From contig JAAWNF010000007.1 of NCBI GenBank assembly GCA_022798795.1, positions 1 through 35,289 on the forward strand: a stretch of DNA of 35,289 bases, in the 5' to 3' direction. The position numbers were made by a program, and so were the translations under genes. The first letter of the stretch is position 1. Every line of letters starts with the position of its first letter. Below the pieces are notes generated by a model, which had not been told where the DNA came from, searched no databases, and was given only the letters and a program-made list of their open reading frames with translations. Shown piece by piece: positions 3,915 to 34,745 of the stretch. Source of the DNA: Bacilli bacterium. GTDB taxonomy: Bacteria > Bacillota_I > Bacilli_A > RF39 > UBA660.

Positions 3915-3937
3915 AAAAGAAAGCAGTGCTTTCTTTT
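3915..3937 (-). terminator. Terminator of the CotD-like gene
   Basis: A near-perfect palindrome (AAAAGAAAGCA, one base, TGCTTTCTTTT) whose inner bases would form the loop. It overlaps the TAA stop of the coat gene (3936-3938). The T-tract on the minus strand is short and interrupted. Confidence 0.55.
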
Positions 3938-4193
3938 AGAATCCAGAACAACCGCCACAATCAATATTGCATACTTGATTTTCTTCTGAGCAAGTATATT
4001 GTGGTGTATAAGTGTGTTTATAGATATGTTTGTTAATTACATGTGTATGAATTGGACATACATGTGGAACTTCATGATAGAATTCTCTTTCGATGCATTT
4101 ATTGATAGCTGGTTCTACAATTTCACGATTACAACAATCCATACCATTTTGTGGCATCATCATATCTTGACAACATCTTTTGTTAAATAACAT
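3936..4193 (-). CDS. cotD-like: CotD-family spore coat protein
   Basis: An 85-residue protein with the composition of inner spore coat proteins: ten Cys, and a His-rich core at residues 39-61 (HEVPHVCPIHTHVINKHIYK and on). The core follows the VPHxxPxHTxxxNxHxxxH pattern of the CotD family. Paired Cys near the N-terminus (RCC, DCC) and a CGGCSGF tail could be cross-linked in the coat or bind metal. The ribosome site AAGGAGG is perfect. It is a single-gene unit with its own hairpin terminator. The candidate promoter has a sigma-E/sigma-K type -10 (CATACTATA) rather than a sigma-A one, which fits expression in the mother cell. No signal peptide, as expected for a coat protein. Confidence in the family is good; the precise layer is inference. 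Confidence 0.8.
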   Translation of the reverse strand: MLFNKRCCQDMMMPQNGMDCCNREIVEPAINKCIEREFYHEVPHVCPIHTHVINKHIYKHTYTPQYTCSEENQVCNIDCGGCSGF

Positions 4194-16508: not shown

Positions 16509-19500
16509 TTAATTTGTTCCTTTCGTTGTATCTACAATTTCCATATCAGGTAAGCTATCATAACTTGGTAAATTTGTTACTGTTAAAGAGGTACTTGTTA
16601 AACGTTGTCCTTCTAAAGTAACTGCATCATTCACACGATATAATCTTGCTCGGATATTTGTTCCTACCATTGTCTTATAAGTTTCCTCATCTACAACATA
16701 GAACCAAATTCCATCTGCTATTTCAGTTACATCATTTTGGTCTGTTAAGTTTGCAAATAAGAAGTTTTCTCCATCATAGATTTTATTTTCATCATCTGCA
16801 TCTACAAGTAACATTGCATTAAAGGCTGGATTTCCTCTATAATTTCCTTTAAATACAACTGAACCTGCTGGGATTGGGTCTTTTCCTTCTTCATAAACAA
16901 ATGGTTCTTTTAATTTTCCAATTGTATTATTTGATAAATCAACATTATCTCCTGGAGGAGCAATAACATCAATTTCAGCTCCACTAATTCCATTCTTATT
17001 TCCAACTGCTTCTATTTTAACATAAGAAATATCATTATAAGTCCATAACTGATTTCCACCTGTTGTTCCCTCTTTATCAAAGTAAACAATCTCAGTATAA
17101 TTGTTCTCTTCTGTTAAATGGAATGTTCCAGTTTTTGCTAATGTCCATGAAGAACCATCTTTACTCACATACACATTGTATTTAGAAATCGTATGTTCCA
17201 TTAATAGTCCATTTTCTAATGCAGCCTGATATTTGATACCAGATAAAGGCATTTTTGTATTTAAATGAATTAAAATATAAGCATTATCTGTATCTGGTTT
17301 TAGTTCTACTTTATTATTTGTATAAACTAATTTTGAAACTTTTTCAGTACCTTTAAAGTAAGTACTTGTATCATCATCAATCAAATGATTGATTGTCAAT
17401 TTACTCATATCAATTGTTTCGTCTTCATTGTCAACAATTTCACCTGCTGCTTTGGTATTTGAACTAATTGTAAAATTATCTTTTTTTACACTTCCATCAT
17501 GCGCTACTTTTACTTCGTCTAAAACATAAGCTTCTGTTTTGTTTAATAAATAATCATAAGCAACTATCTTATAAGTAATAGCTCTATTATTCATAGCTCC
17601 AATCTGGTCTGTAAAGGTATTTTCTGTTACAAAAGCGATTGGTTCGCCATTACGAATAATTTCATAACCTAAGATATTTCTATCATCTTTATCGACATTA
17701 AATGATAGTGTAAAACGTTTATTTTTATTATCTGCTTCTGTCATGGTTGCTTCTACTTTTGTATCACTTGACATAGGGCTTCCACCCTCTAAACGATATC
17801 TTCTGGCTTCATCATTAAAATACCAAATATCCCTTGTCTCTTCTGGAAACTTTGAAGCATATTCTATTGCTGCTTCACTTGGTGTTAGTCCCCATTTTTT
17901 AAAGAATGGAACTAAGTTTTTACCTGATGCTTCACTTGCATACATTACAAGTAAATCATCAGAATTTCCAGATAACGCTTTTGTTCTTGTTAAGTGATTT
18001 ATCCTAGCATAGATAGAATTTTTATCTTCAAATGTTTTTGTATCATCATATGCTAGATGTAATTGCCAATACATTCCTAAATTTACAAATACATTGCTTG
18101 GTTTTCCTAGTGTATTAGAAGTTACTTTTTCATAAATTTTTGGATAAATATTACTTGTTTCTAATCTTGATTTATTTTTATCATTTGCAGTTTGTGCAAG
18201 TAATGCATAAATATTATTGGTTACTTCAGCATAGGCCAATTTACCTTGATTAATTTGATGTCCGATTTCATGACTAATTCCCCATCCAAAATATCCATTA
18301 AAAGAATCTTGATAAGTTGTTCCATGTAATAATCCACTGATAGAACCATATCCAATTCCAACATGAAGACCTCCTGCATACATGAATGCTCCATCAAACA
18401 TTCTCATGTAACGAATATTAATTCTAGATGCTGGTGCTTGGTCTTTTACATCATTATAAATTTCTTCATTGCTTGGAGTTTCTGATAAACCTTTATGACG
18501 ATAGAACATAGATACCATTTCATCAAATGCACTTGTTGTTTCGTTCACACGATTTACTTTTTCCTCCATCGTACTTAATCCAGAAGCAATCGCATTTTTA
18601 ACCGCTGTAGCTGGGAATGAAAGTAATCCTTTCTCTGTTACAATTTCTGTAGAATTTAATACGCTTGTTCTTTCATTAAATGTAAGACTTTGTTCACTAT
18701 AAAGTTGTGGCAATTTTGATGTATACGTTTCTAGTTCTTCGATATAAGTTCTAATTGCATTTATCTTATCATTACCAGATAATCCGTGTACATCTAAAAC
18801 TGGTATTTTAGTTCCACCACTCACACGAATTTTAATCTCTGAACCTACTGTACTGCTTGGATATCTTACATAAACAGAACCACCACGTTCTTCATTCATA
18901 CTTCCAATTTTTGGAACTTCAATAATATTTTGCCCTACTTTTAAATTGGCTACTGTTTGTGTCCATACATTGGCTTCTGCATAATATTGTGTAAATACAA
19001 TTTGTGGCATAACTTTATTTTTTGTACCTACATAAACAGTAATTGTTTCACCAGCACGAGCTGCAATACCAAGAGGTTGATAGTCACTAATACTCATTGC
19101 AAATCCCAAATGACCATTTCGATTGTTACTGATTGTCTGGTCTACTGTCATAACTTCTCTAATCGCTTTATCATTCAATATTTTTCTTGCATAATCTAAC
19201 TCTTTTAAAAGAGCTTCACGATTTGGATGGTATTCCCCACTTGCTTCTTCTTTTGTGTTAACTCTCTCCTCTAAAGCTTTTATAGTTTCTTCTGTTACTC
19301 CATCTTGTAATTCTAAGTGTAAATCGTCTTTATAAATTGCTTCAATATCATCTTCTAAAGGATTATACTCATAAAATTTAATTTCTCTTAAAGCGTTATT
19401 TCCATTTGCTGTATAGTTTGCCAAACAAAGTCTAATTTTACTAGTATTTACTTTATTTTGTAATAATACTTTATAGTATTTTTGTCCATTTGGACTAGTT

Positions 19501-21572
19501 GCACTTGCAATACTAGCATTCACACTTTTTTCTTTTCCATTTTCATCATAGTACACTCTTACATAAAATAAAGAAGCACTATCATCTTTTGGAACTAAAA
19601 ACATTTGTGAAATTTCGAAATTTTGTTCAAATTCTACAACAATACCTACATTTGCATTGACATTATATCCACCAGTATCCCAAGTATCTGCTTGCCAATA
19701 ACTCTCATAGTCATTGTCTACTAATGAATAGATGTTTTCTGCTGGATAATTCTTTCCTATTTTTAATGTTACAGATTTAATATAATCTGTTTTTTCAGTA
19801 CCATTTGGTCTATTAATTAATCCATAATTATAAGTATCTGGCATTATGTAATCTTTTGTCGTACCAACTGCAATATTTGATTTAGGTCCTTCTCCTAGTT
19901 CATTTGTTCCACTTACAGCAATTTCATATTCTGTACTTGGTTTTAAGTTTCTAAGTTGATAACTAGTTGTTGTAATTCCTGTAATTTTTGTAAATTCTGT
20001 TTCTCCTTTCACACGGTAATAAATATTGTATGTTAATGTATCATCCATTTTTTTATAACCAATATTAAAACCAGCATAAACAGAATTTAAAGTTACCATA
20101 TCTACCATTGGAGGCTTTCTAGTTGGCTTTGGTATTACTTTAATAGAATCTGTACATCCACTCTTCCATTCTCCATTTACAGATTGCACACATACAAGAT
20201 ACTCACTATAATTTTTAAGTCCACCTACTGTAAATTCATCATATGTAGTTTGATAAACTGTATTTTTTACAATTTGGTCTTTATTCATTTCTTTTACTAT
20301 AATTTCATACCCTGTTACATTTGGAGCATGATTATAAGAAATCTTAAAAGATTCACTTAATTCTTCTATTTGAACGTTTGTTGGTCTATCTACACTTGGA
20401 GTGGGAACTTCTGTATAAACGTTGTTTAAAAATTCCACTTTTCCAATTTCTGCTAAAGTATCTGTAGAAGATTCTTTAATTTTAATGGTCACTTTTTTAA
20501 TCGCAATTTGACCTTTTAAGTCAATCACAATTGTATTTGGACTCGCTTTATCTGTAAAAGTATGAATATCATTTAATACTTCAAAGTTCTTTTCAAAGAT
20601 ATGTTCTTTTCCTTTTTCATCTGTTACTACAATTTCTAGTTTTTCTGGTACATTTGTTTCTCCAACTTCTAAACGAAGTTCACTGGTATCCACTTTGTCT
20701 TTTAAATTGAGTGTTAAAACGGCTGGATTTGTTTCTGTAATTTTTCCACTATCACTAGCTGTTACAGTTACACTTCCATCATCTGTCAATAAATCAGATA
20801 AAGTTCCACTTCCTCCTACCATTTCGATTTTAGTTTCATCTAAAATAGCGGTTGTATCTACTATTGTTGCATTCTTTTTTGTTCCACTAATAATAGCAGT
20901 AATATAATTTAAATCTGCAATATCAACATTGCCATCACGATTTAAATCATAAATGAAAGAAGATTCTCCAAAATGAGCAATTAAATGGTCAATGTCAGAA
21001 TCATTAATTACACCATCACCATTGACATCTCCTACTTCAAACATTCCCTTTTCGTTTGATAAACTAATTCTTTTAGAATAGTCATCTAAAGTAACATTAG
21101 TCTGGTAAGATTTATAACCATTTCCAAATAATTCTAAGGAATATGTTCCTCTTTTTAATCCATAAACTGTAATTCCATAATACATAACTGGATTTTCACT
21201 ATCTATTCCAGTTAAAATATTTCCTTCTTTATCTAATTTTCGAATTGAAACAGTTACAGATTCACTTCCTAAAGTGTATTGTTTATTGATAATATTAGTA
21301 ATTCCATTTAAATCAACTTGCATACTTGCGCCTGTTTCATCTTTTAAATAGAATCCAATATTTGAGTTTTCTACATTTTCGATTGGTAACGGAAATTTCA
21401 AATCAATTTCTAAATTTCCTTTTGCATCTACTTTTTCATTATGAACTGCAACTTCATTTTCTACTGTTTTCACTTCATTTTCAAAAGTTTCTAAAAGTGC
21501 AAAACATGAAGGTGCTAAAGAATGCATCGCCATACAAAAACATAAAATATAACTTATCAATCTTTTTTTCAT
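16509..21572 (-). CDS. Secreted M60-family (mucin-type) metallopeptidase with dockerin, FN3 and CBM-like domains
   Basis: A 1687-residue exported enzyme. The start at 21572 (MKKRLISYI) follows AAAGGAG by 8 bases and opens a signal peptide (about 1-28). In order: an Ig-like domain (about 35-170); a dockerin (179-230) with two calcium loops, DVNGDGVINDSD and DLNRDGNVDIAD; a beta-sandwich (about 240-390); two fibronectin III domains (about 395-485 and 488-573); an F5/8-type carbohydrate-binding-like domain (about 575-740); and the M60 peptidase (about 805-1200). The zinc motif is HEIGH (1100-1104) with E1115, and AGGLHVG precedes it. C-terminal FN3-like and F5/8-like domains and a final domain (about 1545-1687) of unknown role follow. 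M60 enzymes cleave O-glycoproteins such as mucins. There is no anchor of its own, so attachment may rely on the downstream cohesin-like protein. Confidence 0.92.
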   Translation of the reverse strand: MKKRLISYILCFCMAMHSLAPSCFALLETFENEVKTVENEVAVHNEKVDAKGNLEIDLKFPLPIENVENSNIGFYLKDETGASMQVDLNGITNIINKQYTLGSESVTVSIRKLDKEGNILTGIDSENPVMYYGITVYGLKRGTYSLELFGNGYKSYQTNVTLDDYSKRISLSNEKGMFEVGDVNGDGVINDSDIDHLIAHFGESSFIYDLNRDGNVDIADLNYITAIISGTKKNATIVDTTAILDETKIEMVGGSGTLSDLLTDDGSVTVTASDSGKITETNPAVLTLNLKDKVDTSELRLEVGETNVPEKLEIVVTDEKGKEHIFEKNFEVLNDIHTFTDKASPNTIVIDLKGQIAIKKVTIKIKESSTDTLAEIGKVEFLNNVYTEVPTPSVDRPTNVQIEELSESFKISYNHAPNVTGYEIIVKEMNKDQIVKNTVYQTTYDEFTVGGLKNYSEYLVCVQSVNGEWKSGCTDSIKVIPKPTRKPPMVDMVTLNSVYAGFNIGYKKMDDTLTYNIYYRVKGETEFTKITGITTTSYQLRNLKPSTEYEIAVSGTNELGEGPKSNIAVGTTKDYIMPDTYNYGLINRPNGTEKTDYIKSVTLKIGKNYPAENIYSLVDNDYESYWQADTWDTGGYNVNANVGIVVEFEQNFEISQMFLVPKDDSASLFYVRVYYDENGKEKSVNASIASATSPNGQKYYKVLLQNKVNTSKIRLCLANYTANGNNALREIKFYEYNPLEDDIEAIYKDDLHLELQDGVTEETIKALEERVNTKEEASGEYHPNREALLKELDYARKILNDKAIREVMTVDQTISNNRNGHLGFAMSISDYQPLGIAARAGETITVYVGTKNKVMPQIVFTQYYAEANVWTQTVANLKVGQNIIEVPKIGSMNEERGGSVYVRYPSSTVGSEIKIRVSGGTKIPVLDVHGLSGNDKINAIRTYIEELETYTSKLPQLYSEQSLTFNERTSVLNSTEIVTEKGLLSFPATAVKNAIASGLSTMEEKVNRVNETTSAFDEMVSMFYRHKGLSETPSNEEIYNDVKDQAPASRINIRYMRMFDGAFMYAGGLHVGIGYGSISGLLHGTTYQDSFNGYFGWGISHEIGHQINQGKLAYAEVTNNIYALLAQTANDKNKSRLETSNIYPKIYEKVTSNTLGKPSNVFVNLGMYWQLHLAYDDTKTFEDKNSIYARINHLTRTKALSGNSDDLLVMYASEASGKNLVPFFKKWGLTPSEAAIEYASKFPEETRDIWYFNDEARRYRLEGGSPMSSDTKVEATMTEADNKNKRFTLSFNVDKDDRNILGYEIIRNGEPIAFVTENTFTDQIGAMNNRAITYKIVAYDYLLNKTEAYVLDEVKVAHDGSVKKDNFTISSNTKAAGEIVDNEDETIDMSKLTINHLIDDDTSTYFKGTEKVSKLVYTNNKVELKPDTDNAYILIHLNTKMPLSGIKYQAALENGLLMEHTISKYNVYVSKDGSSWTLAKTGTFHLTEENNYTEIVYFDKEGTTGGNQLWTYNDISYVKIEAVGNKNGISGAEIDVIAPPGDNVDLSNNTIGKLKEPFVYEEGKDPIPAGSVVFKGNYRGNPAFNAMLLVDADDENKIYDGENFLFANLTDQNDVTEIADGIWFYVVDEETYKTMVGTNIRARLYRVNDAVTLEGQRLTSTSLTVTNLPSYDSLPDMEIVDTTKGTN

Positions 21573-21601
21573 TTCATCTACTCCTTTACTATCCTTAAGA
21601 T

Positions 21602-21631
21602 ATTGTACCATAACTTCCATTTAAAGTTCAA
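21602..21631 (-). promoter_or_regulatory. Promoter of the M60/cohesin operon
   Basis: On the minus strand TTGAAC (21626-21631), an 18-base spacer and TACAAT (21602-21607), preceded by TGG as an extended -10. The start would be about 21595, giving a short leader with the AAAGGAG site. Confidence 0.6.
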
Positions 21632-27308: not shown

Positions 27309-29063
27309 TTAATAACTTGGAACAATTCCTACTCCATCAAAGTAATGAATATTTGCATCACACCATTGTTTAGTAGGCTCATTTCCAGCACCATAAATTT
27401 CTGTTAAATCAATAATAAACAAATTATCAACATAGGCTGTCTCTGTTGCATCCACTAAAAAATTTCTAATTTTCCATGTTCCACTATTTGGACTTTGTAA
27501 ACCTTGAATCGAAGATAACTTCATCCATTCTGCAGTCTGATTTGATTTTCGTGCAAATACAACAGTTCCATTTTCGGTATCACTTTGATACATTTCAAAT
27601 CTATCATCACTTGCTGAAAAAGTTCCAGTTGATAAAAATTCTACACTTCCATAATAAACGTGAGAGGCTATTGGTGATGAAGTATTTTGAGAAATCATAG
27701 AAGTTACTCCTGATTGAAACTGTAAAGACGAATTTCCTGATTTTGAAATATCTGAAACGATATTAGCATTTGACAGAGTCCAACCTGTAGTTTCTTCAAA
27801 ACCACTATTCTTCACTAAGTTAGTTGCTACTTTACCATTGTCAATAATGAGTGCCGTGATTCTAGCATATCCATCTCCACTATGACCCGTTTCGCTTTCG
27901 CCTGTTGGAGAAACCATTTCTTTATCTCCACCAATCATTTGCATATTAGTAAATTTATAACCTGAATAATGATAAGAACATTTTTCATTTGCACTTGCTT
28001 CTACACTTTCGCAAATTGGAGTAATATCAGTATTTGAGCGTATAGCAATAGAACCCCTATACCCTGATATATAAGAGGAACCTCCTCCAGCGTTTCCTTC
28101 ATAGCCTTTTTGACCGCCATAATATCCGCCTCCACCATTTGTAGTAGAACCAGATCCTCCAATTCCAAAAGTATATAAACTTTGAGTAGCTCCTTTTCCT
28201 ACAGTAAAGCCTGGATTTGTTCCATTTCCTACTCCATCTAAAGCATTAATTTCTCCTCCAGCTCCTCCTGAACCAGTATAATAGGCTCCACCTCCGCCTC
28301 CAGCTACTATAATTCTAGAAGTTAATGAAGTAGTATCGTTCCAAGTTGAAGTTATGTCTAATCTAATATCTGTTGCTCCTCCACCTCCTGCACAACCACC
28401 ATTAATTGTTCCATTAAAGGAAGAGTTTGGGCTTGTTGCAGAACACTCACTATCAACATGTGTAGGATGTTCTCCTACAAATATATGCAATTGAGTATTG
28501 ATATTTAATCCAATATTTCCTTTTACATAGGCGCCTTTTCCTGCATTAGTTCCGCCTCCTTCTGCTCCCCATAACTCCATTTGATACAATCCATTCGTTG
28601 GAACTGTAAACTGCTGTTTTTTTCCTGTATAAGTATATTCATATGTAATAGGGTCAATTACTTCAATTGTTCGCTCTTCTTCTATTATATTTCCTTGATA
28701 ATTCGCACTATAAGTTATAACATATGTCCCATTTTTAGTAGCATCAAATGTTGGATTTGATGTTGTTGTAATTTCTGTTTTAATGATGTTTCCGTTTTGG
28801 TCGACTACTTTTACATCATCTAATAAATCAAAAGAAAAATTACTTACCATGGAAGTATTAGCTAATAATATATCTTTATGGGCAAATGAAAAACTATATG
28901 TTTTATTTTGTGTTAAATCTGTCACAATTTCATTTTTTATTTTATCTAGTATCACTTTTCTATTTCCAAGTATTGCAAGAACTCCTACAATGAGCATTAA
29001 AAAAAGCAACAAAATAGAATACAACATACTGGAAATTGCAAACCCTTTTTCATTTAATTTCAT
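27309..29063 (-). CDS. Prepilin-like anchored protein with Gly-rich and phage-tail-like domains
   Basis: A 584-residue protein. The N-terminus LNEKGFAISSMLYSILLLFL is prepilin-like (Gly-Phe cut site and long hydrophobic helix) but has Ser instead of Glu at +5. An Ig-like region (about 75-135) is followed by a Gly-rich domain (about 140-400). This domain resembles the ALK/LTK-type Gly-rich fold: FTVPTNGLYQMELWGAEGGG at the start, GGGGA and GGAGG runs, and paired Cys. The C-terminal part (about 412-584) is a CBM4/9-like sandwich (NLVKNSGFE, WTLSN) ending in IYGAGNEPTKQWCDANIHYF, a tail common in phage minor structural proteins. The mix suggests domain exchange with phages and a binding role at the cell surface. 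Ribosome site AAGAGG is good. Confidence 0.83.
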   Translation of the reverse strand: MKLNEKGFAISSMLYSILLLFLMLIVGVLAILGNRKVILDKIKNEIVTDLTQNKTYSFSFAHKDILLANTSMVSNFSFDLLDDVKVVDQNGNIIKTEITTTSNPTFDATKNGTYVITYSANYQGNIIEEERTIEVIDPITYEYTYTGKKQQFTVPTNGLYQMELWGAEGGGTNAGKGAYVKGNIGLNINTQLHIFVGEHPTHVDSECSATSPNSSFNGTINGGCAGGGGATDIRLDITSTWNDTTSLTSRIIVAGGGGGAYYTGSGGAGGEINALDGVGNGTNPGFTVGKGATQSLYTFGIGGSGSTTNGGGGYYGGQKGYEGNAGGGSSYISGYRGSIAIRSNTDITPICESVEASANEKCSYHYSGYKFTNMQMIGGDKEMVSPTGESETGHSGDGYARITALIIDNGKVATNLVKNSGFEETTGWTLSNANIVSDISKSGNSSLQFQSGVTSMISQNTSSPIASHVYYGSVEFLSTGTFSASDDRFEMYQSDTENGTVVFARKSNQTAEWMKLSSIQGLQSPNSGTWKIRNFLVDATETAYVDNLFIIDLTEIYGAGNEPTKQWCDANIHYFDGVGIVPSY

Positions 29064-29886: not shown

Positions 29887-29923
29887 AGAAAAACAAACTA
29901 ACCAAATTACGCAGCTAGTTTGT
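29887..29923 (-). terminator. Terminator of the sigF operon
   Basis: ACAAACTA (29893-29900) pairs with TAGTTTGT (29916-29923) across a 15-base loop that contains the sigF stop codon. On the minus strand five Ts follow the stem. Confidence 0.65.
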
Positions 29924-30572
29924 CTTTTAACTTCACTAATACTTTCTGTTCTTTCCTTGACACTTGAACTTGACTCATTCCAAGTACACTTGCAGTCTCA
30001 CTTTGTGTTTGGTCTTTCATATAACGTTCACAAATCAAAGACCTTTCTAATGGGTCTAATTTAGAAACTTCCTCCCGGAGTGCAATCAAAGTATTTAAAT
30101 CAACCCTTTCTTTTTTACCAATCGTATCATGAAGTGTAATCACTTTTCCATCTTCTTTAATTGGTTCATCGATACTTCTGACAGAATCTTTAGAATGAAT
30201 TGCTTCACTAATCACAAATTCTGGGACTTCTAAAAATTCCGCTAATTCTTGAAATGTTGGTTCTCGCATCAAGCGTTGAGATAATAATATGCTTGCTTTT
30301 TCAATTTTGAGAGTTAATTTTGTAATTTCTCTACTGATTTTTATCCCCTGATTTTCTCTCATAAATTTTTTCATTTCTCCAACAATATAAGGATATGCAT
30401 AAGTAGAAAATTTTGTACCATAAGAGGCATCATAATTATTATATGCGTTGTTTAAACCAATCCACCCAACTTGAAATAAATCTTCAAACAAAAAGGGAGA
30501 GCCTAACTGATGAGCAATTGAATAAATTAAATTTTGATGTTCATTTAAAACTGCATCTTTTTCATTTTCCAT
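29907..30572 (-). CDS. sigF: Sporulation sigma factor, SigF-like
   Basis: A 221-residue sigma factor of the SigF/SigG/SigB group. Region 2 contains FEDLFQVGWIGLNNAYNNYD and GTKFSTYAYPYIVGEMKKFM, region 3 starts at KISREITKL, and region 4 ends with KDQTQSETASVLGMSQVQVS, nearly the SigF signature. The ATG at 30572 is chosen for the AAAGGAG site 5 bases upstream. In Bacillus this factor switches on the forespore programme and is held by SpoIIAB until SpoIIAA releases it. Here the gene follows a SpoIIAA-like gene by 13 bases and no spoIIAB lies between. SigG is the main alternative, but the gene order favours SigF. Confidence 0.88.
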   Translation of the reverse strand: MENEKDAVLNEHQNLIYSIAHQLGSPFLFEDLFQVGWIGLNNAYNNYDASYGTKFSTYAYPYIVGEMKKFMRENQGIKISREITKLTLKIEKASILLSQRLMREPTFQELAEFLEVPEFVISEAIHSKDSVRSIDEPIKEDGKVITLHDTIGKKERVDLNTLIALREEVSKLDPLERSLICERYMKDQTQSETASVLGMSQVQVSRKEQKVLVKLKDKLAA

Positions 30573-30585
30573 AAACACTCCTTTA

Positions 30586-30933
30586 TCATGTTTCAAAAAT
30601 ATGAAAAGCGCTTAATTCATCATTTGTTTCATTCATATATTTTAATAGCCGGCTATTAATTATTTTTTGTTTTACAATTGTTTTTTCAACTCCACATAAC
30701 ATACTTTTTCCTTTGTTGTTCCTACAAAGTTCATAGTTATAAAAAAGGGTACTAATTCCTTTCATATCAATCGAAATTAGATGTTCTACATTGAATACAA
30801 TATTTCTAATTCCAGCTTCTTTTACCAGTTCTGTTACTTCTTTATTTAATTTATTCACAGTATCTTTAATAAGTTCTCCTTCAAGTCGTACAAATAAAAT
30901 TCCTTTTCTACATTCCATATTAATTTCTAGCAT
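30586..30933 (-). CDS. spoIIAA: SpoIIAA-like STAS-domain anti-anti-sigma factor with altered phosphosite
   Basis: A 115-residue STAS protein. It shows the SpoIIAA landmarks: LFVRLEGEL (13-21), IRNIVFNVEHL (42-52), and a CGVEKTIVKQKI segment (80-91) where SpoIIAA has its C-terminal helix. The phosphorylated serine loop of SpoIIAA (DSSG) reads DMKG here (56-59), so the usual serine is Met and its neighbour Lys. It is directly upstream of sigF with no spoIIAB. The stop is TGA followed at once by TAA. It may bind another anti-sigma factor, act without phosphorylation, or bind the sigma factor itself. Upstream, AGGAGCC and AGTAAAT with suitable spacing could be a sigma-H type promoter, but this is weak. 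Confidence 0.82.
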   Translation of the reverse strand: MLEINMECRKGILFVRLEGELIKDTVNKLNKEVTELVKEAGIRNIVFNVEHLISIDMKGISTLFYNYELCRNNKGKSMLCGVEKTIVKQKIINSRLLKYMNETNDELSAFHIFET

Positions 30934-31000
30934 ATCACATTATCACCTCGCTTATTTACTTTATCATGGCTCCTAAATGATTTCTATTCATTCGACAAAA

Positions 31001-32179
31001 TTAGAACTTTTTTTTCATCGCCACAATTCGACCTAGTAGATACCCAAAAAGAAATATAACAATATAAAATGGAGCTTCTAAAGATTGCTTTTTTATCTCT
31101 ACTTTTTGAAGCTTTGTCTTTTTCTCCAAATTAGTACTTTTTTCATTTTGACAAGATGCTACTCTAAGCTTTAAATTTTCTATTTCTTGCTTTAGAAATA
31201 TATTATCTTGTTGCAATAAAGAATTAACAGGATGTTCTTTTAAAAGGATTTTTTCTATTGGGACTTCTTTCAGCATAAATTTTTCTACAGGTACCTCTTT
31301 TGTTATAATAATCTCTTTTATTTCCGGCTCTTTTTTATGAATTCTACAAAAGAGTCGCTTCTTTTCTGTTTTTAAATCTGGATAAGGATAACCATCTATC
31401 ATAGTACTACTAAATTCTTTACTATACTCTCTTGTCTCCTTTTCATAATAACTCATACGTTCTTGATAACGATACTGTTCTGTTTTATAAACTTTCGTAT
31501 GCAAATTCTCCTCTATTTTTTCTAATGATGTATTTTCTTCTTCATATAAAATTTGATTTACCATCATCTTACGCTCTATAAAATTAATTTGTGTAGAGAT
31601 AGAAAACCATTGTCTTGTATAAGTTTGCATACAACTCGGTAAATTTAAATCATATAACCATTCAATTAAAAATGCATTTTCTTCTTCAGTTACATTGACA
31701 AGAGTCATTTCTACTTCTAATTCGTCAAAATAACAAGGTTCATCTAATTCTAAAATTATTTCATTCCTTTTTTCTTCCATTTTATATGATATCGAATTTC
31801 TTCCTTTATAAACTTGAATAGACGCAAATGTAAGATTAGAATTATTTATTTCAGATAGTCGAATATATTTAATTTTTTTAACTGACTGATAGTGATAAAT
31901 TGTTTTTTTCTCAACAATATCCTTCTCTATTGGATATTCATTTTGCCATTTTGACCATGGAGTAAACTTCCAAAATTCTGTCTTGATAAAATCTTCTGAT
32001 GGTGCATCTTTAAAATATCCCCCTTCTTTTTTTATTCTGAACCATTGATATTCCTTTTCCTCTTTGATTTCTAGTGTGCTTCCATTGATAGTAGGTACTG
32101 TTTCTACTTCTTTCCATTCCTCTGCTTTTACAGAATAAATGGGAATTAACATGAAAACAATTATCATTAACTTTTTCAT
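31001..32179 (-). CDS. Exported single-pass membrane protein of unknown function
   Basis: A 392-residue protein that I do not recognise. A signal peptide (residues 1-19, ending in VKA) is followed by a large extracytoplasmic part with a PWSKW motif near residue 74 and a Tyr/Lys-rich strand after it, a pattern seen in some Firmicute surface proteins. Three ten-residue repeats come next (KEVPVEKFML, KEVPIEKILL, KEHPVNSLLQ at 294-323), then a coiled coil (about 324-365) and a C-terminal membrane helix (about 368-386) with a basic end. The ATG at 32179 is preferred to the GTG at 32188, which is part of the GAGGTG site. No terminator separates it from the SpoIIAA-sigF genes 67 bases downstream, so read-through into them is possible. 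Confidence 0.72.
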   Translation of the reverse strand: MKKLMIIVFMLIPIYSVKAEEWKEVETVPTINGSTLEIKEEKEYQWFRIKKEGGYFKDAPSEDFIKTEFWKFTPWSKWQNEYPIEKDIVEKKTIYHYQSVKKIKYIRLSEINNSNLTFASIQVYKGRNSISYKMEEKRNEIILELDEPCYFDELEVEMTLVNVTEEENAFLIEWLYDLNLPSCMQTYTRQWFSISTQINFIERKMMVNQILYEEENTSLEKIEENLHTKVYKTEQYRYQERMSYYEKETREYSKEFSSTMIDGYPYPDLKTEKKRLFCRIHKKEPEIKEIIITKEVPVEKFMLKEVPIEKILLKEHPVNSLLQQDNIFLKQEIENLKLRVASCQNEKSTNLEKKTKLQKVEIKKQSLEAPFYIVIFLFGYLLGRIVAMKKKF

Positions 32180-32240
32180 TTCTTTCACCTCAAAAGTATT
32201 ATTCTATGTAAAAATTCAAAAGTACTAAATTTTTATAAAA

Positions 32241-32263
32241 AAAAGTGAAAAAATTTCACTTTT
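32241..32263 (-). terminator. Terminator of the PadR-HAAS operon
   Basis: AAAAGTGAAA (32241-32250) pairs with TTTCACTTTT (32254-32263) over 3 bases, with a T-run on the minus strand. It overlaps the stop codon of the HAAS-domain gene. Confidence 0.8.
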
Positions 32264-33617
32264 ACTTCATTTTGGCGATTGTATCAGAATTAGCTTTCAC
32301 AATGATTTTTAAATCTCCTAGTTCATTGTAATGATACCAACGTAAGTTTTTTAATTCTCTCATTATCATATTATATACTTTTCTTCTACTTGCTCTACTT
32401 ACATTTTGATGGATTGCTTTTAATCGATAAAAGATTATGCCATCCAACTCTTTTTCTTCTACATTCACTTCAGATATGAAATCAGAATAATACGAAACAA
32501 TAATTTGAACTTGGTTATCTTCTAGTGAATTATCCTCTTTTACCTCATAATCATAATTTGAAATATGAAAGGCACTACTAATAACATTTTTTTCATAAAC
32601 AAATTCTTTTTGAGTAAAAGAATTATCTGGTAAACCACGATAAACTTCAAAATCAGCAAGTGTACCAATACTAAAGAAACAACCAGATACAAAGACAATT
32701 GCACTTATAATTAAAGAATAACAATAAATTTTTTTATTTCCGTATAATAAATTATAAAATACTTTTGTAAGAAAAGTTAGAAATATAGCAATACCTAATA
32801 GCATCAAGAAAACGCCTAAAATTGGGACTCCTTCTATCAATAGGAATAATAAAACAGCTAACGCAATATAGCATCCAAAATCTACAAAATATAATGGAAA
32901 TACAGTACATAAAAATAAAAATGCTTTTAATATTTCAAGAGCAATTTTAAAACCTCCTGATTCTTTTGTTGTCTGATGTTCATTTTCCTTTTCTATTTTT
33001 ACTTCTTTGCTCTTACTTTCTTTTTTTTTTGCACTTTGTTTATTTGTTATAAAATAAGGTTTGAATACAATCATCGCAATAATAATACATACAATCAAGT
33101 AAATGAAACTTGTAAAACATTTTAAAATAATTTTGAAAATAGAATCAAAAGGAGGAAAAGCCACCTCAAAAATTCCTAATCCTAAACTTTCTATCAAGTA
33201 AAATGGAATTCTAAGTAATGAAAGTCCTATTAATAATATAATTGCTTTTATAATAACCTCAAATACCATTTCTAAAGTCCAATTTTGGTCATTATTCTTA
33301 AAATCTTCTATGGCATCTTGAGTCCAACCAGATAATTTTTCAGCTCCCTTTTTTATCAAACTTTCTCCTTCTTCTACAAACTCCTTTACTTTATCTTTCC
33401 CATTAGAATAGTCTGGATTAATTTTATAGGCTTTCAATATTTCTCTAGAAAGTTCCTCTACACTTCCAAAATCGGCTACCGCTTCTTCTTCACTACTTCC
33501 ATGTCTTATTTTTTCCTCAATTGTATCCTTATATTCGTTTAAGATATCCTTTCTTTCCTCTTCACTCAAAATCTGTAATTTTTCTTCTAATATTTTTAAA
33601 AATTTCTTTTTATTCAT
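32262..33617 (-). CDS. HAAS/DUF1700-domain membrane protein
   Basis: A 451-residue protein. Residues 1-62 form the HAAS (DUF1700) helical domain: FLKILEEKLQILSEEERKDI, then GSSEEEAVADFGSVEELSRE. A linker and several membrane helices follow (about 115-340), interrupted by a basic cytoplasmic loop (about 190-225). The C-terminal 110 residues are soluble and probably outside the cell. HAAS proteins are usually encoded with a PadR repressor, as here: the start overlaps the PadR gene by 8 bases. They are thought to act in envelope stress responses; ligand unknown. Ribosome site GAGGAGG. Confidence 0.87.
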   Translation of the reverse strand: MNKKKFLKILEEKLQILSEEERKDILNEYKDTIEEKIRHGSSEEEAVADFGSVEELSREILKAYKINPDYSNGKDKVKEFVEEGESLIKKGAEKLSGWTQDAIEDFKNNDQNWTLEMVFEVIIKAIILLIGLSLLRIPFYLIESLGLGIFEVAFPPFDSIFKIILKCFTSFIYLIVCIIIAMIVFKPYFITNKQSAKKKESKSKEVKIEKENEHQTTKESGGFKIALEILKAFLFLCTVFPLYFVDFGCYIALAVLLFLLIEGVPILGVFLMLLGIAIFLTFLTKVFYNLLYGNKKIYCYSLIISAIVFVSGCFFSIGTLADFEVYRGLPDNSFTQKEFVYEKNVISSAFHISNYDYEVKEDNSLEDNQVQIIVSYYSDFISEVNVEEKELDGIIFYRLKAIHQNVSRASRRKVYNMIMRELKNLRWYHYNELGDLKIIVKANSDTIAKMK

Positions 33618-33930
33618 GATTTTCCTCCTCTATAAATTTATTTACTGATGTGGCAAAATTACTCCAATTATTTTTTAAGTCCTCTGCTCTTTCTTTTCCT
33701 AATACAGTAATATGATAATATTTTCTAGGTGGTCCTTCTGTCGATTCTACTAAATATGTTTCAAAATATCCTTCATTTGTGAGACGCTTTAATAATGGAT
33801 AAATGGTTCCTTCATTCACATCAATAACTTTGCAAACTTGAGCAACTAACTCATAACCATAAATATCTTTTTTTGCTACAGATAATAATACAATGAGTTC
33901 TAATACTCCTTTTTTAAATTGCGTGTTCAT
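33610..33930 (-). CDS. PadR-family transcriptional regulator
   Basis: A 106-residue winged-helix repressor. The PadR signature is complete: GVLELIVLLSVAKKDIYGYE (8-27), VNEGTIYPLLKRLTNEGY (38-55), then the wing GPPRKYYHITVLGKE. The C-terminal dimerisation helix is short, as in the small PadR-s2 group. It is the first gene of a two-gene operon with a HAAS protein and probably represses its own promoter, which carries an inverted repeat. Ribosome site GAGGTG. Confidence 0.95.
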   Translation of the reverse strand: MNTQFKKGVLELIVLLSVAKKDIYGYELVAQVCKVIDVNEGTIYPLLKRLTNEGYFETYLVESTEGPPRKYYHITVLGKERAEDLKNNWSNFATSVNKFIEEENHE

Positions 33931-34046: not shown

Positions 34047-34745
34047 ATGTTTGATTTTTTTAAAAAGTTATTGAAAGACTTTCACTTTTTTACAGCTGCT
34101 TATTCAAATAATGTATTCCCAGACCCACTTTCCAAGGAGGAAGAAGATTATTATGTAGAACAAGCAAAATTAGGAAACGCTGAAGCAAGAAATAAACTCA
34201 TTGAACACAATTTAAGATTAGTAGCACACATTGTAAAAAAATATGACCATAGAAATGAAGATATGGATGACTTAATTAGTATTGGTACCATCGGTCTTAT
34301 TAAAGGAGTTGACAGCTATTCTTACAAGCATGGGACTAGAATTACAACTTATTGTGCTAGATGTATAGAAAACGAAATTTTAATGCATTTCAGGAGTGAT
34401 AAAAAAAACACTAAAAATATTAGCATTAATGATTCTGTTGGATTTGATAAAGATGGAAACGAAATCACTTTTTTAGATATTTTAAAAGCTCCAAAACCAG
34501 ATTTTGCTTTAGATTTACATTTAAAAAATAATATTAAACTTCTTCATCAATATTTTGATATTTTAACAGAACGAGAAAAAGAAATTATTATAAAAAGATA
34601 TGGATTAAATAATGAAGAAGCAATCACGCAAAAAGAAATTGCAAAAGAGCTAGGAATCTCCAGAAGCTATGTTTCTAGAATTGAAAAAAGAGCACTTACT
34701 AAAATGCTTCATGAATTTATCAAAAATAAAAATAACTGTGATTAA
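34047..34745 (+). CDS. sigK: Mother-cell sporulation sigma factor K (pro-form)
   Basis: A 232-residue sigma factor, very close in pattern to sigma-K. A hydrophobic pro-sequence (about residues 1-19) precedes YSNNVFPDPLS (about 19-29), equivalent to the YVKNNAFPQPLS junction where Bacillus pro-sigma-K is cut. Core motifs are IEHNLRLVAHIVKKY, DLISIGTIGLIKGVDSY, ARCIENEILMHFR and the region 4 sequence KEIAKELGISRSYVSRIEKR. The gene is continuous, with no skin-type insertion. Sigma-K runs late mother-cell genes, including coat genes such as the CotD-like gene in this window. Ribosome site AGGAG. Ends in a bidirectional terminator. Confidence 0.94.
   Translation: MFDFFKKLLKDFHFFTAAYSNNVFPDPLSKEEEDYYVEQAKLGNAEARNKLIEHNLRLVAHIVKKYDHRNEDMDDLISIGTIGLIKGVDSYSYKHGTRITTYCARCIENEILMHFRSDKKNTKNISINDSVGFDKDGNEITFLDILKAPKPDFALDLHLKNNIKLLHQYFDILTEREKEIIIKRYGLNNEEAITQKEIAKELGISRSYVSRIEKRALTKMLHEFIKNKNNCD

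Follow-up and report, generated by a model that had tools for sequence, protein, structure and literature searches.

How can SigF be kept under control at a locus where its gene directly follows that of a SpoIIAA-like protein, with no spoIIAB in between? In B. subtilis, SigF requires an inhibitor to be forespore-specific. The question is raised by a gene pair in the window, that is, the whole stretch of 35,289 nucleotides that was analysed. The first-pass annotation had described a STAS gene followed by sigF after 13 bases, with spoIIAB missing, and a loop that reads DMKG and lacks the phosphorylated serine. Both readings hold.

The two genes lie on the reverse strand (-). The STAS gene (30586-30933) codes for 115 amino acids and sigF (29907-30572) for 221. 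The longest open reading frame of sigF has a TTG start and overlaps the STAS gene. The ATG at 30572 is preceded by the ribosome binding site AGGAG (30578-30582), gives the product of 221 amino acids and leaves a gap of exactly 13 bp after the STAS stop codon (30573-30585), so that there is no room for spoIIAB. sigF ends in a terminator-like hairpin with a run of T (29889-29927, -), which probably closes the two-gene unit; the scanned region contains one such element, where chance would give 0.7.

Several neighbouring genes deserve a brief description. The gene upstream of STAS (31001-32188, -) codes for 395 amino acids and matches no family over the cut-off; its product looks like a secreted coiled-coil protein and has a membrane helix at the C-terminus. 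Many RF39 genera have a similar reading frame some 67 bp ahead of the STAS gene. In the sister loci it is dacF that precedes spoIIAA, and the coiled-coil gene may replace it. A PadR regulator and a HAAS-domain membrane protein (32262-33930, -) lie between sigK and the STAS-sigF unit; in two relatives (L018, L029) sigK is found directly upstream of STAS. Further away, a protein of 1703 amino acids (16509-21620, -) combines peptidase M60, fibronectin type III, F5/8 type C and dockerin-like domains and may be a mucin-degrading surface enzyme. Another protein, of 584 amino acids (27309-29063, -), has an N-terminus like that of pilins and a glycine-rich ALK/LTK domain (8e-41), a domain that takes its name from animal receptor kinases. 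An 85-aa protein (3936-4193, -) has a weak match to the CotD spore coat model, slightly under the cut-off.

The STAS protein matches the Pfam STAS (8e-15), ant_ant_sig (TIGR00377, 4e-15) and spore_II_AA (8e-14) profiles, and scores 51.5 bits against the curated SpoIIAA equivalog TIGR02886, under its cut-off of 114.75 bits. Its AlphaFold model (pLDDT 95.8) has as top solved match the Bacillus SpoIIAA chain 1thn_B, from SpoIIAA-SpoIIAB crystals (TM 0.91). The fold is thus, by model and structure match, that of SpoIIAA. The phosphorylatable Ser58 of SpoIIAA, on the other hand, has no counterpart: in translation and alignment, the loop codons (30757-30768, -) read D56-M57-K58-G59 in place of DSSG. 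We take the phosphorylated Ser58 of Bacillus SpoIIAA to be the first serine of DSSG, and chain 1tid, presumably the S58A mutant of SpoIIAA, has the loop sequence DASG. M57 therefore occupies the position of Ser58, and K58 that of the second serine. A serine or threonine stands at the Ser58 position in only 4 of the 92 distinct loci, and a lysine follows that position in 57 of them.

Is the second gene indeed sigF? The best models for the sigma factor are SigBFG (2.5e-56) and spore_sigF (3e-55); against the curated TIGR02885 it reaches 187.5 bits, under the cut-off of 321.45 bits, as SigF proteins of RF39 are short and divergent. In an unrooted tree, which includes two B. subtilis sequences, the RF39 SigF proteins form a single clade (SH-aLRT 99) separate from other SigF and from SigG, and RF39 SigG groups with B. 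subtilis SigG (100). Taken by itself, the tree does not place RF39 SigF within the other SigF proteins, and the identification was made by synteny and exclusion. In the relatives, spoVAC and spoVAD usually come next after STAS and sigF, and in the sister families they follow sigF as well. In the window, yceD and rpmF take this place, so that synteny is given here by the upstream STAS gene and, in most relatives only, by the downstream spoVA genes. The second F/G-type sigma factor of the genome is SigG (G000:C51), with the N-terminus VDICGVNT; its gene adjoins a PRC-barrel gene on an 11.5-kb stretch that also carries ftsA, ftsZ, spoIIGA and sigE (names read from the sequences). The best match to the SigF model in most genomes, G000:C51 for example, was rejected as SigF because it is SigG.

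To find the missing kinase, we searched the source genome (1.36 Mb, 97.7% complete). No SpoIIAB was found over the profile cut-off; there were only weak matches, and those that we inspected are histidine-kinase frames. Two candidates were rejected: a 145-aa frame at a contig end (L004), which is the tail of a BceS-like histidine kinase before an ABC transporter, and a PF13581 match (L001), which is a NarL-type histidine kinase. The SpoIIE model found no PP2C phosphatase of its type in this genome at E<=10. The same is seen in the relatives. The named ones among them include the UBA660 genome and Pelethosoma, which places the window in the RF39 group. Neither SpoIIAB nor SpoIIE passes the cut-off in any of the 98 genera of the family, nor does SpoIIAB in any of the 193 genomes of the order. 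In the class, it passes in 40 of 198 genomes. Two short frames in relatives (G028:C10 and G014:C46) match the SpoIIAB model below the cut-off, at about 33 bits.

The residues at which SpoIIAA would meet its kinase have changed as well. We compared the RF39 STAS proteins with 28 SpoIIAA proteins of sister families; positions in this comparison run one lower than in B. subtilis numbering. By analogy with RsbV-RsbW (PMC7340262), Asp23 would be a position of contact with SpoIIAB. It is Asp in 93% of the sister proteins and mostly Asn or Thr in RF39, so that contact residues of this kind appear to be absent. Several Gly and Arg positions near the loop are also replaced. In SigF, the residue at Glu149 (B. 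subtilis numbering, position counted), which we take to be important for SpoIIAB binding, is Glu in 83% of the sister proteins as compared with 25% in RF39. With SpoIIAB and SpoIIE absent and both the loop serines and the contact positions gone, canonical partner switching cannot operate. The earlier claims that the sigma factor is SigF, and that kinase and target residue were both lost, are thereby borne out for the genome and the clade: we did not find SpoIIAB and SpoIIE elsewhere in the genome along with a second, canonical spoIIAA, and there was no sign that the sigma factor is anything other than SigF.

The gap is a property of the clade. Where the loci of sister families could be read, the order is spoIIAA (with DSSG), spoIIAB and sigF. 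In 89 of the 92 distinct related loci, sigF directly follows STAS, far beyond chance, and the two frames often overlap or touch. Of the other three, one (L011/L096, of a single genus) has metK between the genes, with sigF about 1.5 kb downstream of STAS; there is no sigF in the examined stretch of L095, and the stretch of L165 ends after STAS. Besides the main clade there is a side branch in which several genera have a STAS protein that is truncated or without the DxxG loop, and ten genera (L200-L209) have a sigF without a recognisable STAS gene. On the SigF tree ten changes of decay or loss of STAS are needed, at least five of them forced by the starred branches. As STAS decayed or disappeared on about ten occasions while sigF remained, it is not an indispensable switch in the side branch. 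In summary, the order RF39 has retained SigF and, in most members, a SpoIIAA-like partner, and has lost the kinase and the phosphatase.

What, then, does the STAS protein do where it is kept? In 22 close pairs its dN/dS is 0.02-0.26, below that of SigF in most pairs, and between the window and its 98%-identical relative L089 it is 0.03. In addition, RF39 STAS proteins have gained near-invariant residues, namely E7, R9, K10, G11, F14, R16, N48 and E106. The low dN/dS together with these residues argues that STAS in the main clade was repurposed and is not decaying. There are also SigF positions that are conserved in the presence of STAS and relaxed in its absence; they might mark an interface, although this comparison is confounded by descent.

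A strongly constrained protein with new conserved residues, encoded next to sigF, could also be the antagonist of a new partner. SigF would then be held by an anti-sigma factor that is peculiar to RF39, unrelated to the known ones and as yet unrecognised, and STAS or another protein would release it. The need of B. subtilis SigF for an inhibitor speaks for such a protein. On the other hand, the operon holds no candidate gene, Fin, a known anti-SigF protein, was not found over the cut-off in the 98 genera, and the repeated loss of STAS with retention of sigF is hard to reconcile with it. We think that this explanation is unlikely. A search for Gin/CsfB gave nothing over the cut-off, but its control matched no genome, B. 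subtilis included, so that this search carries no weight here.

Next, we asked what the promoter of the unit looks like. A putative Spo0A box, TTTTGTCGAA, lies upstream of STAS (30991-31000, -), directly past the stop codon of the upstream gene. It is an exact match, the only one in the whole window (0.07 expected), and is conserved in relatives: its core TGTCGAA precedes STAS in 79 of the 92 distinct loci, compared with 1.2 expected from shuffles. Downstream of it is an element that matches the consensus of an extended -10, TGATAAAGT (30958-30966, -), with an inferred function; in the relatives, TGnTAAAnT follows the core at a near-fixed distance. From its sequence, the arrangement looks like a SigA-type promoter, and the operon is predicted to be regulated by Spo0A. 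The loci with metK between STAS and sigF retain the box upstream of STAS. The core also precedes sigF in nine of the ten loci without STAS, and spoIIAA in many loci of sister families. The Spo0A input thus looks ancestral and retained, whereas the post-translational switch was lost.

Taken to the extreme, such a promoter could be all there is: SigF would be controlled purely by transcription and unregulated as a protein, and STAS would serve an unrelated task and merely still be in the operon. The conserved putative box with its near-fixed -10-like element and the roughly ten lineages that dispense with STAS are in favour of this. It is difficult, however, to explain in this way why the constraint on STAS is mostly equal to or above that on SigF and why its frame lies next to that of sigF, often overlapping or touching it. 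Moreover, the presence of spoIIR and of the sigma cascade implies an output of SigF that must still be timed. We consider purely transcriptional control rather improbable.

All of this presumes that there is a forespore. In B. subtilis, SpoIIR connects SigF to SigE. We found SpoIIR in 85 of 98 genera, including the source genome, which also has SpoIIGA, SigE, SigG and SigK; sigK lies in the window (34047-34745, +), intact, in one piece and over the curated SigK cut-off. SigG-grade matches are found in most genomes examined. The classical SigF-type promoter pattern gave no match before sigG or spoIIR. The element TGnATAAA-N16-CAnnTA precedes sigG in 12 of 27 cases and spoIIR in 6 of 8, with less than 0.1 expected for each; as the pattern was defined post hoc, these figures are optimistic.

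Potentially, RF39 could make no spores at all, and the locus could be a relic or SigF could serve another task. RF39 genomes are small, no SpoIIR match was found in 13 of the 98 genera, and the predictor SpoMAG, which sees spoIIAB in all predicted spore-formers, assigns RF39 MAGs a sporulation probability of 0% (PMC12536801). The sigma factors and SpoIIGA of the genome, the wide occurrence of SpoIIR and SigG and the spoVAC-spoVAD genes beside sigF in relatives all count against this. So does a survey that predicts spores for RF39 (PMC10868615). Indirect support for spores also comes from egg-surface transplants of caecal contents, in which RF39 was one of the taxa transferred and which, according to the title of the study, transplanted spore-formers and not other members (PMC7028958). 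A complete lack of spores therefore seems very improbable to us.

The best explanation overall, to which we give a probability of roughly one half, is that partner switching is gone, that Spo0A-driven transcription is the main gate and that STAS is a non-phosphorylatable accessory. Judging from the sequences compared here, spoIIAB would have been lost from the spoIIA locus, together with spoIIE elsewhere, in an ancestor of the sampled clade. Transcription driven by Spo0A~P would be the main gate for SigF, which would then drive spoIIR and sigG via the promoter type that they share. The retained STAS protein would be a phosphorylation-independent partner that damps or times the activity of SigF, most likely by contacting SigF or its polymerase through the new conserved surface. 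What this reading does not account for is the confinement of SigF to the forespore, for which transcription alone is no explanation. A more specific version, in which RF39 is an endospore-forming order without an ATPase anti-sigma factor and the former antagonist SpoIIAA has, in most lineages, come to regulate SigF directly and without phosphorylation, is tentative, and we would sooner bet against it. Of the idea that SigF control was rewired, one part stands, namely that canonical switching is gone. Of the three replacements named in the first-pass annotation, transcriptional control fits the conserved Spo0A box and the repeated loss of STAS, and direct action of STAS fits the purifying selection in the main clade; as to another anti-sigma factor, no known one was found, with Fin as the informative search.

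How much of this is new? One sentence in PMC10868615 (Microb Genom 2024) reports spoIIAB and spoIIE as reduced or absent in RF39 and proposes a different regulation. That study rests on gene presence calls; operon structure, STAS residues, promoter and selection are not covered, and sigF is unmentioned in its text. In the open-licence papers that we searched, we came across no account of this STAS-sigF operon, of its conserved Spo0A-box promoter or of the residue losses, and none of how STAS is under selection or has repeatedly been lost; the anatomy of the operon, the lost residues and the promoter appear to be new. Another study (PMC3533761) lists spoIIAA, spoIIAB, sigF and spoIIE as present in every bacillus and clostridium that forms spores. 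If our reading is true, a clade that has much of the sigma cascade and neither SpoIIAB nor SpoIIE would break such a minimal sporulation set, and predictions of sporulation that rely on gene sets of this kind would come into question. It would also be a natural experiment on cell-specific gene expression without the textbook switch. Given how small the two proteins STAS and SigF are, the question lends itself to direct tests in laboratory strains.

Finally, we compared the locus with known systems. Like the spoIIAA-spoIIAB-sigF operon of Bacillus, Clostridium and the sister families, it has a gene for a STAS protein of the SpoIIAA fold before sigF; downstream spoVA genes in most relatives and the upstream Spo0A box, which is shared with many sister loci, add to the likeness. 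The SpoIIE-controlled partner switch differs from it, since in RF39 there is no spoIIAB, spoIIE or phosphoserine and the positions of SpoIIAB contact appear replaced. The RsbV-RsbW-SigB system likewise has the gene of a STAS antagonist near a sigma factor of the SigB/F/G type, but an RsbW-type kinase was not found here and the phosphoserine of RsbV has no counterpart. RsbS of the stressosome, although itself phosphorylated by RsbT, offers a further parallel, as a protein with a STAS fold and a regulatory role that is not a substrate of a cognate kinase in the manner of RsbV or SpoIIAA.
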